From a virus, in the IMG/VR virus record IMGVR_UViG_3300027857_000033, positions 1 through 43,217 of that record: a DNA stretch of 43,217 nucleotides; one strand, 5' to 3'. Position numbers and translations under genes: made by a program. The notes beneath the pieces were generated by a model that was not told where the DNA came from, searched no databases, and worked only from the letters and a program-made list of their open reading frames with translations. Each line of letters starts with the position of its first letter. Positions within the stretch are counted from its first letter, which is position 1. Of the stretch, positions 9,780 to 33,923 are shown one piece after another.

Positions 9780-10054
9780 GCGGCACCCCTAGCCGATGAC
9801 ACCAGACCGGCCCCGTCAGGGCCGGAGAAATTCACTGGGACAGTAAACCGGGGCATGTCTGCCGTTGCCGGTTTCCCCCACTTGCCGTCAGGCTTGCGTT
9901 CCATGCCGAGGGCTTCCGGGTGAAGGCACGTAACCTCACCGGCTGCCCACCGCCTGTGGCGGTCGAACCCGGTTATGCCGGTGAAAACTTTCCCGCATCC
10001 GCGGCAGCCGCACGCGGACAGGGACTGGCCTAGCGGGACTTCCAGTTCCATCAC
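9776..10054 (-). CDS. FDXHR-type putative zinc-binding protein
   Basis: GTG at 10054 (or the next codon, ATG at 10051) overlaps the integrase stop, giving tight coupling. The 92-aa protein contains CGCRGCGKVF then GFDRHRR and a later Cys (VTCLHPEALGM), followed by GKWGKP. This is the FDXHR zinc-binding pattern found in many actinophage proteins. It probably binds one zinc ion. It could help the integrase or act as a small regulator, but that is inference from position. Confidence 0.75.
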   Translation of the reverse strand: MMELEVPLGQSLSACGCRGCGKVFTGITGFDRHRRWAAGEVTCLHPEALGMERKPDGKWGKPATADMPRFTVPVNFSGPDGAGLVSSARGAA

Positions 10055-11103
10055 ATTGCCCTCCTGAACTGGATGAGAGAGCCGCCCTGCGGCGGCTCCG
10101 GCTGGCCGTACATGGAGTTGCCTTTCAGCCAGTCGTTAAGCTCGTCCCGTTCCTGCTCCACGCCGATGTAGCGGATCGTCTGCTTAAGGTCGTCATGGTC
10201 GAGCATCAGCGACACCTGGATGAGCGCCCGCTGGTGGCCGAGACGTTCGCTTAGGGACTTGAGGAACGCCCTGGCACCGCTGCGGCGGAACGTGTGCATT
10301 CCCTCGCCCAGATGGTCAGCCGTCTTGCCTTGCCGGGTGGCAGTGACACCCAGGTCGGTCAGCAGCCGCTTGGCTACCCGCTCCATGGCGCTGACAGGTG
10401 TCTCCGGTTGCAGCCTGCCGTGCCCGCGGGAGCGGGACGGCACTAGAAGCCAGCCGGGGTGTTCCCGCATCATCGTGTACGGGCTCAGGTAACCCATCTG
10501 GGCGGCGTAGAACCTCAGCCACATGTTCATCTCGGCTACCAGTTCGGGCGTCATCCCGGTTGTCGTCCACCTGTCCCGCTTCTCCCGGTAAAGCCGGATC
10601 TCACCTTTAGCCAGGTCGATGTCAGCCAGCCTGGCCGGGCCGATCTCCGATGCCCTGGCAAGAGTGAACAGGGCGAGGGCGACGATGGCCCGGTCTGCCG
10701 GGTGACGGGTCCCTGCCGCCTCAAGGGCGGCAGGGAATTCTTCCGCGTCCAGGTAGTACTTCGGCTGCCGTTCAGCTTTGCGGCCCTTGTAGCCGTCCAG
10801 CAATTTCGCGGCAGTGAAATTCGGCCGGAGGTAGCCCCACTTCTCAGCCCAGCCGAGGAAGGCTTTCACGGTTTCCAGGCAGTTGTTCCGGTAGCCCTGC
10901 TCGCCGGGCAGGTCGCTGAAGAACCGTGCCACGCAGGCATGGTCAACCTGGCCCATGGTGGCTTGCGGGCCTTTCACCTTCTGGCAGGCCGCGGCGAAGC
11001 CGCGGGCAGCTACACCGTGCCGCCTGACCGTGCCGGGCGCGAGCCCTCGCCCGGCCTGGTATTCCAGGAATTCGGGTATGGCGTCGGTGACTTTGAGAAC
11101 CAT
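10051..11103 (-). CDS. int: Tyrosine site-specific recombinase (integrase)
   Basis: ATG after AAGGAAAGGAG. The 350-aa protein has an N-terminal SAM-like DNA-binding region (~5-95) and a catalytic domain with all conserved residues in order: R150 in LARASEI, K175 in YREK, H270 and R273 in HTFRR, H303 in LDHDDLKQ, and nucleophile Y312 in IRYIG. It catalyses integration and excision between attP and attB. Its presence indicates a temperate ancestry. The upstream region holds a likely -10 (TATGAT, minus strand) inside a copy of the dispersed element, so expression is probably repressor controlled. attP cannot be located from this sequence alone. Confidence 0.93.
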   Translation of the reverse strand: MVLKVTDAIPEFLEYQAGRGLAPGTVRRHGVAARGFAAACQKVKGPQATMGQVDHACVARFFSDLPGEQGYRNNCLETVKAFLGWAEKWGYLRPNFTAAKLLDGYKGRKAERQPKYYLDAEEFPAALEAAGTRHPADRAIVALALFTLARASEIGPARLADIDLAKGEIRLYREKRDRWTTTGMTPELVAEMNMWLRFYAAQMGYLSPYTMMREHPGWLLVPSRSRGHGRLQPETPVSAMERVAKRLLTDLGVTATRQGKTADHLGEGMHTFRRSGARAFLKSLSERLGHQRALIQVSLMLDHDDLKQTIRYIGVEQERDELNDWLKGNSMYGQPEPPQGGSLIQFRRAM

Positions 11104-21078: not shown

Positions 21079-21455
21079 CCAATCCTCCTATCCTGCCGGT
21101 CCTCGAGGCGTACGGATTCGAGGACCGGCGGTGGGGACATGGCGACTGGCAGACAGTTAAGTGCCCTTTCCATCCCGACAGCCACGCTAGCGCGAGGCTT
21201 AACGAAGAGAAGGGGGTCTTCCACTGCAACGCCTGTTCCGCCAGCGGGAACGCTATCAACCTGATCGAGAAGGCCGAGGGCATCAGTTACGACGCCGCTA
21301 GGCAAAGAGTTAAGGACATAACTGGCCATGTAGGGACCGCGAGAGGGGGTGCAAGTGCTAAATCCAAGCTGCCCTTGTGGGCTCAAAAGCATTCCCGTCC
21401 CGCTCGGGGGACTGGACGGCGCTTATCAGGTTCTCATTCACGAACCGGATGCTGA
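21075..21455 (+). CDS. DnaG-type primase, N-terminal CHC2 zinc fragment
   Basis: 126 aa; GTG overlaps the previous stop by 4 bases. CPFHPDSHASAR (C30, H33) and VFHCNACSASGNAINLIEKA (C51, C54) are the primase CHC2 zinc finger. Authentic homology probably ends near residue 95; the last ~30 residues (HSRPARGTGRR) are a run-on through the homing endonuclease gene. The catalytic TOPRIM part is separately encoded at 21873. The split primase suggests the endonuclease gene inserted into one primase gene. Confidence 0.8.
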   Translation: MTNPPILPVLEAYGFEDRRWGHGDWQTVKCPFHPDSHASARLNEEKGVFHCNACSASGNAINLIEKAEGISYDAARQRVKDITGHVGTARGGASAKSKLPLWAQKHSRPARGTGRRLSGSHSRTGC

Positions 21456-21876
21456 GATAGTGGCGCAATATCACTGGACGGCCAAGCGTAGTAAGCGGTC
21501 CATCTATGCATACCGCAAATGGCACGCAGCGGGCGCCGAAGGCGGCCAGTTTATGCACTGCCTCCTGATGGGCCGCCAGGGAATCGACCATCGCAACGGC
21601 GATGGCCTCGACAACCGACGTTGCAACCTACGCCCCGCGACGGATGGGCAGAACGGTGCTAACAGGGGGAAGTTTACGGGATGCAGCTCACAATTTAAGG
21701 GCGTTAGCTGGGATAAGGCTAACGGCAGATGGGTGGCACAGATCAGGGTTAACGGCAAACGTCACCTTCTGGGCTATTTTCAGTCCGAGATCCCCGCAGC
21801 CAGCGCCTATGACGACGCTGCGGTGAGATACCACGGAGAGTTTGCCCGGACCAACGTAATGCTGGGGCTGCTATGA
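21349..21876 (+). CDS. HNH-AP2 homing endonuclease inside the primase locus
   Basis: 175 aa; GTG at 21349 (GAGAGGGG upstream) overlaps the primase fragment by 107 bases. Residues ~65-100 form an HNH core (FMHCLLMG, GIDHRNGDGLDNRRCNLRP). Residues ~112-168 form an AP2-like DNA-binding domain (GCSSQFKGVSWDKANGRWVA, LGYFQSEIPAASAYDDAA). This HNH-AP2 architecture is typical of free-standing phage homing endonucleases. Its stop overlaps the start of the TOPRIM half by 4 bases. Confidence 0.88.
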   Translation: MQVLNPSCPCGLKSIPVPLGGLDGAYQVLIHEPDAEIVAQYHWTAKRSKRSIYAYRKWHAAGAEGGQFMHCLLMGRQGIDHRNGDGLDNRRCNLRPATDGQNGANRGKFTGCSSQFKGVSWDKANGRWVAQIRVNGKRHLLGYFQSEIPAASAYDDAAVRYHGEFARTNVMLGLL

Positions 21877-25785: not shown

Positions 25786-26103
25786 TCAAGAGACCAGTTC
25801 AGCCGCCTTTTCGGCTGCTTCGCATTCGGCATGATTGACACACCAGTGCTGCCCTGCGAACGTGACGCCGCCTGGAACGTAAGCCAGCGATGCCAGCCCT
25901 TTAGCCAGATGGTTGAAAGCTTCCGCCGCGGCGCCCTTCTTGCCGCCGTACATAAGCTCGTCACCGTGACAGGCTATGTACTGGCCTGCTTCGCCTCCCG
26001 TTTCGACCCGGCGCTGTTCCGTCCAGGTTCTCATCTCGTGAATCCACAGCGGCACTGCCGCTTGCAGGCCGGTTGTGAGGGCCGGGAAGTCTTCGATTCT
26101 CAC
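25786..26103 (-). CDS. Hypothetical protein downstream of WhiB
   Basis: 105 aa; GTG overlaps the WhiB stop by 4 bases. It is mainly helical, with a few Cys and His (QYIACHGDELM, HWCVNHAECEAAEKAAEL) that could bind metal. Last gene of the leftward operon. No family recognised. Confidence 0.65.
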   Translation of the reverse strand: MRIEDFPALTTGLQAAVPLWIHEMRTWTEQRRVETGGEAGQYIACHGDELMYGGKKGAAAEAFNHLAKGLASLAYVPGGVTFAGQHWCVNHAECEAAEKAAELVS

Positions 26104-26435
26104 GCCACCATCACCCGCTTAGCCGCGGCTAGCTTGTTGGCCAGCTTGGTCCGCTGGCCCGTGGTGAGACCGCCCCAGATGCCGTAGCGGTTGTTCGGGT
26201 CTTCCGTCCTCATCGCCTGCCGCAGGCATTCAGCCCGGACAGGGCAGGAACGGCATATCTTCAAGGCCACCTTGCGAGCCTCCCGTCTCGCCTCCCACCC
26301 TTCCTCGAAGGTGAGTGCTTCGAGCAGCCCGTCATCAGGGCCGAACCATGCGTCGTAGCCGGTTTCCTCGTAGAACGGGCGGCAGGCCGAGTCTTTCTCC
26401 CAGTTCTTGCGTACCGGGGCCGGAATGTCGATCAT
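26100..26435 (-). CDS. WhiB-family iron-sulphur transcription factor
   Basis: 111 aa; ATG after AGAGAGAGGAAC. Four cysteines in WhiB order: C18, C61, C64 and C70 (ICRSCPVRAEC), which hold a 4Fe-4S cluster. The GIWGGLT turn (85-91) and a basic AT-hook-like end (RTKLANKLAAAKR) follow. WhiB proteins bind the host principal sigma factor and redirect transcription; phage versions such as WhiBTM4 can repress host whiB2. It is likely to act on host or phage gene control. Confidence 0.93.
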   Translation of the reverse strand: MIDIPAPVRKNWEKDSACRPFYEETGYDAWFGPDDGLLEALTFEEGWEARREARKVALKICRSCPVRAECLRQAMRTEDPNNRYGIWGGLTTGQRTKLANKLAAAKRVMVA

Positions 26436-26459: not shown

Positions 26460-26482
26460 AAAAAGACCGCCCTGAGGCGGTC
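26460..26482 (-). terminator. Terminator immediately after the tmRNA-like RNA
   Basis: Minus strand: GACCGCC, 4-base loop, GGGCGGTC, then TTTTT. The stem begins two bases after the RNA's 3' CC, so the terminator is dedicated to this RNA and separates it from the WhiB gene. Confidence 0.88.
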
Positions 26483-26484
26483 CC

Positions 26485-26565
26485 GGTGGAGCTGGGGAGA
26501 ATCGAACTCCCGTCCAGTCATGTTCCGCGTGCGGTTTTCATGACTGTCGAAACCATTCCAGCCCC
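26485..26565 (-). ncRNA. tmRNA-like RNA: tRNA-like domain only, no tag frame
   Basis: Minus strand. The 5' end GGGGCTG pairs with 3' CAGCTCC with one wobble, G3-U, the alanyl-tRNA synthetase identity pair of tmRNA. Then GAATGGTTTCGAC matches the conserved tmRNA D-loop region. AGTCATG pairs perfectly with CATGACT (helix P2), capped by a 16-base loop with inner CCG-CACG-CGG. GGAC precedes the T arm, GGGAG-TTCGATT-CTCCC. Discriminator A and CC follow; the genome has G where CCA would end. Bacterial tmRNAs are ~300-400 nt with a tag frame and pseudoknots at P2; here only 16 bases are present. A terminator follows directly; a promoter-like element lies 45 bases upstream. Confidence 0.8.
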
Positions 26566-26570
26566 TCAGT

Positions 26571-26599
26571 CCTTAACGGTGCAAGGTGACCTGTTAAGG
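26571..26599 (-). other. Leader hairpin of the tmRNA-like RNA
   Basis: Minus strand CCTTAAC pairs with GTTAAGG (7 bp), with an inner GGT/ACC after a bulge. It ends 6 bases before the RNA's 5' G, so it could guide RNase P or other 5' processing. Confidence 0.55.
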
Positions 26600-26609
26600 A
26601 CCACGTACA

Positions 26610-26630
26610 TGGTATCACGTGCGGATGATC
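26610..26630 (-). promoter_or_regulatory. Dispersed element upstream of the tmRNA-like RNA
   Basis: Minus strand GATCATCCGCACGTGATACC. It starts within the stop of the 39-aa gene and lies 44 bases before the RNA. This supports a role of the family in starting or controlling transcription. Confidence 0.6.
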
Positions 26631-26829: not shown

Positions 26830-27906
26830 TCAGATAGTTCCGGCTGTTCCCCATGCGCGCTCGAAGTCACAGCGCATGTAGCCTTGCACCGGGCCGAGCT
26901 GGGGTATCCGGATCTTCCTGGGCTCGATCCCGGCCGGCCGCAGCATGGCGGCCATCTCCCGCGGTGCGGCCTCAGCAGGCCACCAGGTTTTCCAGGGCGC
27001 ACCCTGTAGGGCGTAGAGCCTTTTGACAAGCTCGGCCGTCCAGATCCTGTCACCCGTCTTCCAGACGGCTTCCACGTCTTGCAGGAGACGCTGCAAGGGG
27101 GATATCTCCGGTTCCGCGGTGACACCTTCGGTCAGTTCCGCGTAAGCGTTCCTGATGCGCTCCGGCCAGGAACCTCCGGCCACGTCCGCGATAGCGAACA
27201 AGGGCCACCAGCAGTCAGCGTTCCTGTCTTCGCAGCCTTCCGGCAGATCCGGCCACACGCTGGCCAGCTCCATGGCCACCGAACCGGCCCAGTCGCCCAG
27301 GGCCTGCCCGATAGCCTCACCCTGCGGATCGTGGAGCCTCGCCATGTAGGAATCTATCTTCTGTTCCGGCTTGCGCTTCTCCATGTAGACGAGAAGGCTA
27401 CGGGACATGACGGCGGGGGGCAGCTTGCGCAGCCCGCCGAACATGACCGGGCAGTAGATGGACTTCTCGGCTACGTCGTCAGCCCCGGCGCATTTGTCGG
27501 CCACGCCTTTGAAAGTGAAACCGTCGTTAAGCGCGGCTTGCATGAGCGGAGCCGACTTGTCGGTGCGGAAGATGGTATCCGTCTCGTCTAGGGCCACCGT
27601 GCGGCCTTTACCCAGCCAGCGGACCAGGACGGCTGCCGTGTAGTTGGTCAGCGTCTTAGTCTTGCAGGCCAGGAGTCCGTTAATGGTCATTGCCCTGGAT
27701 TTGCCTGATGCCGGGTGATCGGAGACGAACCCGAGACGCGGGTAAGTCTGGAATGCCCCGTAAGCATGGCTTCCGGCGCACCACACGGCGCACACGTCCG
27801 CGTAAGCGGACGACGGCAGGACGACGAACCTCTTGATGAAGTCGACCGCCTCGTCCAGAAGCTTAGCCCCGTCGAGCGGGGCTGGTTCTTCTGCGGTTGT
27901 ATCCAT
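26830..27906 (-). CDS. DUF3631-type P-loop ATPase
   Basis: ATG at 27906 after GGGGAGAGAGGGA; earlier in-frame codons lie within a terminator and are rejected. The 358-aa product has Walker A-like SDHPASGKS (~62-70) and Walker B TVALDETD (103-110), then PVMFGGLRKLPPAVMSRSLL typical of DUF3631 helicase-like proteins. These occur on actinobacterial plasmids and phages, often as the C-terminal domain of a primase-helicase. The C-terminal ~80 residues (LQRLLQDVEAVW, TAELVKRLYAL) look like a winged-helix. Role in replication likely but unproven. Confidence 0.8.
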   Translation of the reverse strand: MDTTAEEPAPLDGAKLLDEAVDFIKRFVVLPSSAYADVCAVWCAGSHAYGAFQTYPRLGFVSDHPASGKSRAMTINGLLACKTKTLTNYTAAVLVRWLGKGRTVALDETDTIFRTDKSAPLMQAALNDGFTFKGVADKCAGADDVAEKSIYCPVMFGGLRKLPPAVMSRSLLVYMEKRKPEQKIDSYMARLHDPQGEAIGQALGDWAGSVAMELASVWPDLPEGCEDRNADCWWPLFAIADVAGGSWPERIRNAYAELTEGVTAEPEISPLQRLLQDVEAVWKTGDRIWTAELVKRLYALQGAPWKTWWPAEAAPREMAAMLRPAGIEPRKIRIPQLGPVQGYMRCDFERAWGTAGTI

Positions 27907-27948
27907 TTGCCTGTCCCTCTCTCCCCTGCTTGTCGTGTAGCAGGCATG

Positions 27949-27974
27949 AAAAGGGCCAGCCGTCAGGCTGGCCC
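27949..27974 (-). terminator. Intercistronic terminator 1
   Basis: 9-bp stem GGGCCAGCC/GGCTGGCCC with GTCA loop, then TTTTC in the minus direction. Sits between the gene at 27996 and the ATPase start; followed by CATGCC and a purine-rich RBS. Confidence 0.8.
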
Positions 27975-27995
27975 CAATCAAACCGGCCAGATCGG

Positions 27996-33285: not shown

Positions 33286-33546
33286 ATGGATACTTTCCAA
33301 GCCCCCCAAGGGGCCGCCCACAGGCAGCCGGGCCAGCACGAGCCGGCCGAGCTTCGCTATGCCAGGCAGACGAGGAACGCTGTCACGTTCATCGCCTGGA
33401 CTGTCGGCCTAGTCCTGGCCGGAACGATGATCCTGGGCATCATCGGCGGAATCCAGCTCGCCAGGATCAATTCAGAGCTGTCCGGCAGCTCGGGGCTTAC
33501 TTCGGGTAACTGTGTCAGCCAAGGCGGAACGGTGGCAGGATGCTGA
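33286..33546 (+). CDS. Small membrane protein
   Basis: 86 aa from ATG 33286; no RBS, so a leaderless start is possible. Polar N-terminal ~30 residues, one helix (AVTFIAWTVGLVLAGTMILG, ~33-52), and a short outer part with two Cys at the C terminus. Overlaps the next small gene. It lies antisense to the far end of the GntR-like frame. Confidence 0.55.
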   Translation: MDTFQAPQGAAHRQPGQHEPAELRYARQTRNAVTFIAWTVGLVLAGTMILGIIGGIQLARINSELSGSSGLTSGNCVSQGGTVAGC

Positions 33547-33923
33547 TGGACTGGGAACAGTTCGGCCAGTTCATCCAGGGTGCCGTTGTGAGAGTCTTGA
33601 CGTTCGCCGTCTTCGCGGCGATCGTCGTCTTCCTGTTCGGCACTCTTGCCCATCCGGGCCCTTAAAGACTGTCTCGCAACCCGGGCCCCCCGGCCCGGGA
33701 CTACGACCACCAGGCCTTCCTGGACGAGGACCCGGAGGGCTTTAGCTGCCGTGTCCCTGGCAACCTGGTAGTCGGCCTGGATTGTCTCTCTTGAGGGGAT
33801 TGCATCCCCTTCACGTAGTTCGCCTCGCTGGATCATGCCGCGGAGGATGGCCGCTACCTGGAGGTAGCGTGGAACCGGGGAAAGATCATCTAGCGGCACC
33901 AGGTCACTATAGGGTGCCCTCAC
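33357..33923 (-). CDS. GntR-family winged-helix regulator
   Basis: 188 aa; GTG at 33923 after AGGGCAG. Residues ~12-80 (VPRYLQVAAILRGMIQRGEL, AIPSRETIQADYQVARDTAA, KALRVLVQEGLVVVVPGRGA) are a standard GntR DNA-binding domain. From ~90 on the protein is antisense to two small membrane genes and looks non-native; it lacks any known effector domain. The true functional part may be just the DNA-binding domain. It may control the surrounding switch region. Confidence 0.75.
   Translation of the reverse strand: MRAPYSDLVPLDDLSPVPRYLQVAAILRGMIQRGELREGDAIPSRETIQADYQVARDTAAKALRVLVQEGLVVVVPGRGARVARQSLRARMGKSAEQEDDDRREDGERQDSHNGTLDELAELFPVHQHPATVPPWLTQLPEVSPELPDSSELILASWIPPMMPRIIVPARTRPTVQAMNVTAFLVCLA
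33540..33665 (+). CDS. 41-aa membrane micropeptide
   Basis: ATG at 33540 overlaps the previous stop by 7 bases; GGCGGAACGGTGGCAGG lies upstream. Amphipathic MDWEQFGQFIQGAVV then hydrophobic LTFAVFAAIVVFLFGTL. It forms a pair with the previous membrane protein and is antisense to the GntR-like tail. Function unknown. Confidence 0.55.
   Translation: MLMDWEQFGQFIQGAVVRVLTFAVFAAIVVFLFGTLAHPGP

Follow-up and report, generated by a model that had tools for sequence, protein, structure and literature searches.

We report that a 43,217-nucleotide stretch of viral DNA (IMG/VR record IMGVR_UViG_3300027857_000033, positions 1 to 43,217; hereafter the window) encodes, on its minus strand at 26484-26565, the tRNA-like domain (TLD) of a tmRNA without the mRNA-like domain; debris and an attachment site are both rejected as explanations. 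We refer to this RNA and its relatives as mini-tmRNAs. Judging from the comparison of related sequences, the structure of these RNAs is under selection.

A tmRNA reduced to its tRNA-like domain

The Rfam tmRNA model RF00023 matched the window at 75 bits (gathering score 47; E 1.7e-27), and all model positions from 1 to 374 were spanned by 82 nt of window sequence. A sequence-only reading of this DNA had claimed a match to both ends of bacterial tmRNA, and the covariance model bears this out. The mature RNA is about 79 nt long plus CC, and comprises the following parts.

26484-26565, minus strand: mini-tmRNA, tRNA-like domain only (both ends matched by RF00023 at 75 bits; 88.5 bits with the family model R1)
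26559-26565, minus strand: GGGGCTG, 5′ strand of the acceptor stem, supplying the G of the AlaRS identity pair G3-U70 (sequence)
26546-26558, minus strand: D-arm analogue GAATGGTTTCGAC (sequence; GG..TCGAC conserved)
26516-26545, minus strand: P2 stem AGTCATG/CATGACT and core AAAACCGCACGCGGAA (7 of 7 P2 pairs; P2 covaries in relatives)
26495-26511, minus strand: T arm GGGAG-TTCGATT-CTCCC (sequence; T-stem covariation)
26487-26494, minus strand: 3′ strand of the acceptor, CAGCTCC, with U70, and discriminator A73 (sequence)

The window thus contains the tRNA-like domain of tmRNA, with its 7-bp acceptor bearing G3-U70, D-arm analogue, T arm and A73. GGAC lies between P2 and the T arm, and CC directly follows A73; every base-level statement previously made about these elements proved correct when re-read. 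The P2 hairpin, 30 nt in all, joins the two tmRNA ends, and the 16-nt loop that it closes (AAAACCGCACGCGGAA) puts the core in the place of the tag frame and pseudoknots. Both the mRNA-like domain (tag frame and stop codon) and the pseudoknots are absent, with just these 16 nt within P2, as had been claimed; the tmRNA ends are joined without a tag frame, as in a TLD-only tmRNA. RNA folding recovered all three stems (z = -2.85, or -3.83 with the leader and terminator included), and the fold beats those of nearly all shuffled sequences. ARAGORN found no gene in the window, nor the D stem and anticodon arm of a tRNA-Ala in the mini-tmRNA. A two-piece, permuted tmRNA was considered and rejected: the corresponding model (RF04321) scored 30 bits, below its cut-off of 47, and the order is 5′ end and then 3′ end.

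Flanking signals and genomic setting

The mini-tmRNA lies between several candidate signals and two protein genes.

26569-26601, minus strand: leader hairpin, perfect 9-bp inverted repeat GTCCTTAAC/GTTAAGGAC (0 expected by chance)
26460-26482, minus strand: intrinsic-terminator-like hairpin GACCGCC-TCAG-GGCGGTC-TTTTT (RNA fold; unlisted by a simple terminator scan)
26609-26626, minus strand: promoter-like or start-associated phage element ATCCGCACGTGATACCAT (recurrence; upstream of the mini-tmRNA)
26100-26435, minus strand: WhiB-like regulator, downstream neighbour (PF02467, 48.6 bits; synteny only, outside the RNA gene)
26830-27981, minus strand: DUF3631 protein, upstream neighbour (PF12307; synteny only)
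10051-11103, minus strand: tyrosine integrase
21349-21876, plus strand: AP2/HNH-type endonuclease
33360-33923, minus strand: GntR-type regulator

The leader hairpin, reported earlier and recovered here, ends 3 nt upstream of the mature 5′ end. Two further claims held in part. The terminator hairpin folds as described, but was not among the hits of the simple terminator scan; the promoter-like element recurs, with seven matches to ATCCGCACGTGATACCAT in the window against 0.05 expected and another upstream of the mini-tmRNA in a relative (L366), but a sigma-70 scan found no consensus promoter for the mini-tmRNA. Flanked in this way, the window mini-tmRNA has the appearance of a transcription unit belonging to the phage. 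That it is a small RNA gene in its own right rather than debris is upheld by the presence of both ends, by covariation and by conservation across phages.

A repeated element, TGATCCGCACGTSRTAACA, occurs in the window at 1508+, 11123+, 12901+, 12002-, 15978+, 18765+, 26625-, 30911-, 32218-, 32899+ and 41016+. Several copies stand immediately 5′ of gene starts, oriented with transcription, and the element is probably a phage-specific promoter or start-associated sequence. With its integrase, GntR-type regulator and endonuclease, the window resembles the genome of a temperate actinophage.

Covariation and a conserved core hairpin

The family model R1 placed accepted mini-tmRNAs at 44.7 bits or more and full-length tmRNAs and tRNAs at 37 or less, with a single TLD-like hit between the two classes (L171, 39.2 bits). 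This hit, at 1938-2027 in Microbacterium phage Armstrong, is a divergent candidate tRNA-like domain; it is unannotated, adjoins a tRNA-Asn, and has G3-U70, a longer P2 arm and no GAC. L170, L174 and L181 scored weakly and were set aside, being either tRNAs or the 3′ ends of full-length tmRNAs.

In an ungapped alignment of 16 sequences of identical length (A2), 98.3% of the cells in the proposed structure pair, and both sides have changed in 16 of the 22 pairs. The covariation score was 0.674, compared with 0.135 for shuffled alignments and at most 0.13 for slid structures. Across 77 sequences, in an alignment fitted to the model, acceptor pairs 1-3 (G-C, G-C and G-U) are invariant, while two-sided changes are seen in acceptor pairs 4-7, throughout P2 and in the T-stem. 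Among the matches listed, G3-U70 is found in 103/103 unique mini-tmRNAs and A73 likewise in 103/103; the parser that collected them demanded an acceptor, D-arm, P2 and T-stem, and required a pair at 3-70 but accepted any pair type. Such a strict constraint on G3-U70 and A73 suggests that charging matters, since pure titration of SmpB would not need it.

A pairing-free test used the loop motif alone as query and returned 32 distinct contexts, including the window and three known phages. A standard tRNA-like domain flanked the motif in 22 of these, and a variant domain lacking GGAC did so in two more (L026 and L032; 80 and 88 bits); most domain-flanked contexts had 5-7 of the 7 P2 pairs. The core, AAAnCC-GCAYG-CGGA, varies far less than the P2 stem that encloses it. 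Its pattern AA(A/G)nCC...GG was found in 72/102 mini-tmRNAs among the matches listed, compared with 5/112 full-length bacterial tmRNAs, indicating that the core was mostly not inherited from host genes. One subtype (L065, L091 and L101) lacks the core hairpin.

Distribution among phages

Distant blastn matches to cultured phages identified an 81-nt RNA with a full-span RF00023 match in the Streptomyces phages LuckySocke, pSt2308, GiJojo and BRock. In all four it lies within a tRNA cluster with an RNA ligase gene adjoining, and the records either leave it without annotation or place a hypothetical protein across it. Two more cultured phages, phiPsal1 of Pontimonas and Jojan60 of Stenotrophomonas, also carry it, and Streptomyces phage Alone3 has a degenerate copy in which the T-stem and P2 are damaged. 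In no phage record examined is a mini-tmRNA annotated as tmRNA. Pattern scans of viral contigs followed by the parser gave at least 153 loci and at least 103 unique sequences. The middle segment is 25-32 nt long in 102/103 unique sequences among the matches listed, with a parser that allowed about 90 nt; similarly, an exact pattern found a gap of 24-34 nt in at least 120 viral contigs, versus five with a gap of 35-58 nt. One contig, IMGVR_UViG_3300027749_000047, carries two different mini-tmRNAs (L114 and L157) 67 kb apart. In Achromobacter, Pseudomonas and Synechococcus phages (L006, L007 and L009), tmRNA genes, full or permuted, lack a tmRNA annotation in their records.

The genomic neighbours vary, and include DnaB-like helicase, primase, capsid (including major capsid), terminase and exonuclease genes as well as tRNA clusters; tRNA genes are near the mini-tmRNA in 30/103 loci among the matches listed. 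No conserved neighbour gene was found among the loci compared, and such widely differing surroundings suggest that the mini-tmRNA behaves like a mobile cargo gene. One exact, strict pattern found no mini-tmRNA in 395 actinobacterial genomes, and plasmids gave 3′-end or partial matches only. A pattern scan of bacterial genome contigs overwhelmingly picked up 3′ halves from full-length host tmRNAs (ATCGACTA...) and is uninformative on bacterial mini-tmRNAs, and a whole-genome covariance-model search, in which 150/5739 candidates were scored in one genome, was left out of the counts. We found no smpB in 26 mini-tmRNA-bearing phage records, with 10/10 bacterial control genomes positive; an RNA acting in the way its shape implies would therefore need host SmpB, AlaRS and EF-Tu.

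Relatives of the window phage retain the mini-tmRNA to differing degrees. In L366, where the DUF3631 neighbour is 69% identical, it lies at the same place, before WhiB, and its P2 has changed to AGCTAAG/CTTAGCT, a compensated change; the mini-tmRNA of the relative L434 is likewise kept with compensated P2 changes, and a different hairpin occupies the place of the leader hairpin. The L366 copy (1931-2009) has the T-loop GGCAGTA in place of TTCGATT, with T-stem, P2 and core intact. About 80 nt downstream of it, at 2086-2115, lies a second, partial copy of the 3′ half (tggacgccggggcggtaccggacggcttcac), which suggests a duplication. A 52-kb relative with a terminase 78% identical has its mini-tmRNA at another location, with a different leader hairpin and a promoter-like match, TTGACG-16-TATCAT. 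The mini-tmRNA is absent from a 56-kb relative (G428), in which one 37-bit hit (L436) was rejected as it reads on inspection as a tRNA gene. The decay in Alone3, the aberrant L366 T-loop and the absence from G428 indicate that the mini-tmRNA is dispensable, a point against the interpretation favoured below.

Discussion

The kind of RNA found here, a TLD-only tmRNA, is already known, and the earlier statement that no RNA of this form had been described must be withdrawn. Mycobacteriophage DS6A is described as having a ‘TLD only’ tmRNA (tmID 11587; Mao et al. 2009, as cited in PMC4131195 and PMC11915505), and tag-less tmRNAs are known from jakobid and oomycete mitochondria, along with two plastid tmRNAs of about 65 nt in Mallomonadaceae (PMC11915505). 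As published descriptions have it, the DS6A RNA is like the mini-tmRNAs in being phage-borne, with little beyond the tRNA-like domain and no tag frame; by the same descriptions it is a single reported phage case, whereas mini-tmRNAs occur in many phages. The organellar RNAs have likewise lost the tag reading frame and retained the tmRNA ends, but they are organelle-encoded and the oomycete SmpB is organelle-targeted, in contrast to the mini-tmRNA-bearing phages searched, which are without smpB. Full-length phage tmRNAs (for example those of BE-cluster Streptomyces phages, mycobacteriophage Bxz1 and methylophage Melnitz) are also phage-encoded and often near tRNA genes, but encode a tag where mini-tmRNAs have a hairpin of 25-32 nt. 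Bacterial tmRNA (RF00023), which works with SmpB, shares the G3-U70 acceptor, D-arm analogue, T arm, GGAC and P2, but has an mRNA-like domain, pseudoknots and a resume codon, all absent from the mini-tmRNA. Nearly the same architecture is described for TLD fragments made for experiments with SmpB, in which a short loop connects the 5′ and 3′ ends (Bessho 2007 and Shimizu and Ueda 2006, as cited in PMC3929946); these are man-made, whereas the phage RNA occurs naturally and its hairpin loop is conserved.

We favour, with somewhat better than even confidence, the interpretation that the product of this stand-alone phage small RNA gene is charged with alanine, depends on host SmpB and, having no tag frame, competes with host tmRNA. 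After processing of its ends and completion of CCA, host AlaRS would charge the RNA with alanine via G3-U70; in tmRNA the third acceptor pair is G-U without exception and serves as a determinant for AlaRS, according to PMC3985003. Host SmpB and EF-Tu would bind the charged RNA as they do tmRNA, and it would compete against host tmRNA for SmpB and stalled ribosomes. On a stalled ribosome it could take the nascent chain while offering no resume codon, such that host trans-translation would be blocked or short-circuited and proteins made during infection may escape the SsrA degradation tag. The decoy role first proposed from the sequence is supported by published precedent: a TLD-only molecule similar to that of DS6A, chargeable or not, is summarized as strongly inhibiting tmRNA in E. 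coli (PMC4131195, PMC11915505; Mao 2009), perhaps by titration of SmpB (PMC4131195; Mao 2009). As this inhibition is reported even without charging, strict G3-U70 would be unexplained if titration were the whole function.

That same constraint is what makes a tag-less rescue activity plausible, although we consider it less probable, at well under an even chance. Here alanyl-mini-tmRNA with host SmpB would take the nascent chain on stalled ribosomes and add one or several untemplated alanines, and the chain would leave untagged, for instance via peptidyl-tRNA hydrolase; rescue would be kept and phage proteins spared degradation. G3-U70 and A73 never vary, which implies a need for charging; the TLD·SmpB complex, a mimic of a whole tRNA, is reported to make polyalanine without template mRNA in vitro (Shimizu and Ueda 2006, as cited in PMC3929946); and a part in rescue is ascribed to tag-less tmRNAs of mitochondria that have a SmpB of their own (PMC11915505). 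However, the sole TLD-only molecule tested, by the published summary, inhibits tmRNA in E. coli, which is why we prefer a dead-end competitor, and no release or hydrolase factor gene is prominent among the recurrent neighbours. The stronger proposal, that a tag-less rescue RNA widely encoded by phages works with host AlaRS, EF-Tu and SmpB to put untemplated alanine on stalled chains and free them, and so replaces tagged trans-translation during infection, with the core hairpin substituting for the mRNA-like domain, seems to us doubtful. A further, improbable reading makes the core hairpin a binding site for some factor of phage or host, with the tRNA-like ends contributing no more than stability, alanine or localization to an unrelated process, as in a regulatory RNA or an AlaRS titrator. 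A core far more conserved than P2 and rare in full-length tmRNAs (72/102 versus 5/112) would fit such a role; retention of the D-arm, T-arm, GGAC and acceptor identity as in tmRNA, and the subtype without a core hairpin (L065, L091 and L101), would not.

Two-piece tmRNAs exist, including permuted phage ones (L006, L007 and L009), and the mini-tmRNA could belong to a split tmRNA, with the piece that bears the tag encoded at another site. We regard this as very unlikely: no further tmRNA or permuted tmRNA match was found elsewhere in the window, no second full-length or tag-bearing tmRNA was found in seven complete cultured phages, and a short hairpin closes P2, leaving no free ends. Phages do integrate at ssrA, and the Weiservirinae Shandong1 and Milly have a 30-nt ssrA 3′ end beside the integrase; the sequence-only reading had named an ssrA-derived att site as its rival. 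We now give almost no credence to an attP copy of the end of the host ssrA gene, or to a decayed tmRNA. The tmRNA 5′ end is present in the window as well as the 3′ end, the integrase (10051-11103) is 15 kb distant with no TLD 3′ end near it, the stems covary, and conserved copies occur in phages that lack such a context, many of them lying in tRNA clusters or beside capsid genes.

What is new is the breadth of the family, its conserved core hairpin and the evidence of selection for alanine charging; we did not find its scale, conserved core or covariation described in the literature searched, where the tag-less phage tmRNA had a single named example (DS6A) and was seemingly an oddity. Mini-tmRNAs instead form a structured, covarying RNA family in unrelated phages of Actinobacteria and Stenotrophomonas and in many uncultured phages, and the cultured carriers LuckySocke, GiJojo, pSt2308, BRock, phiPsal1 and Jojan60 make them open to experiment. 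Their wide spread suggests that interference with host ribosome rescue, or a short cut through it, is common among phages, and points to this process as a frequent phage target.
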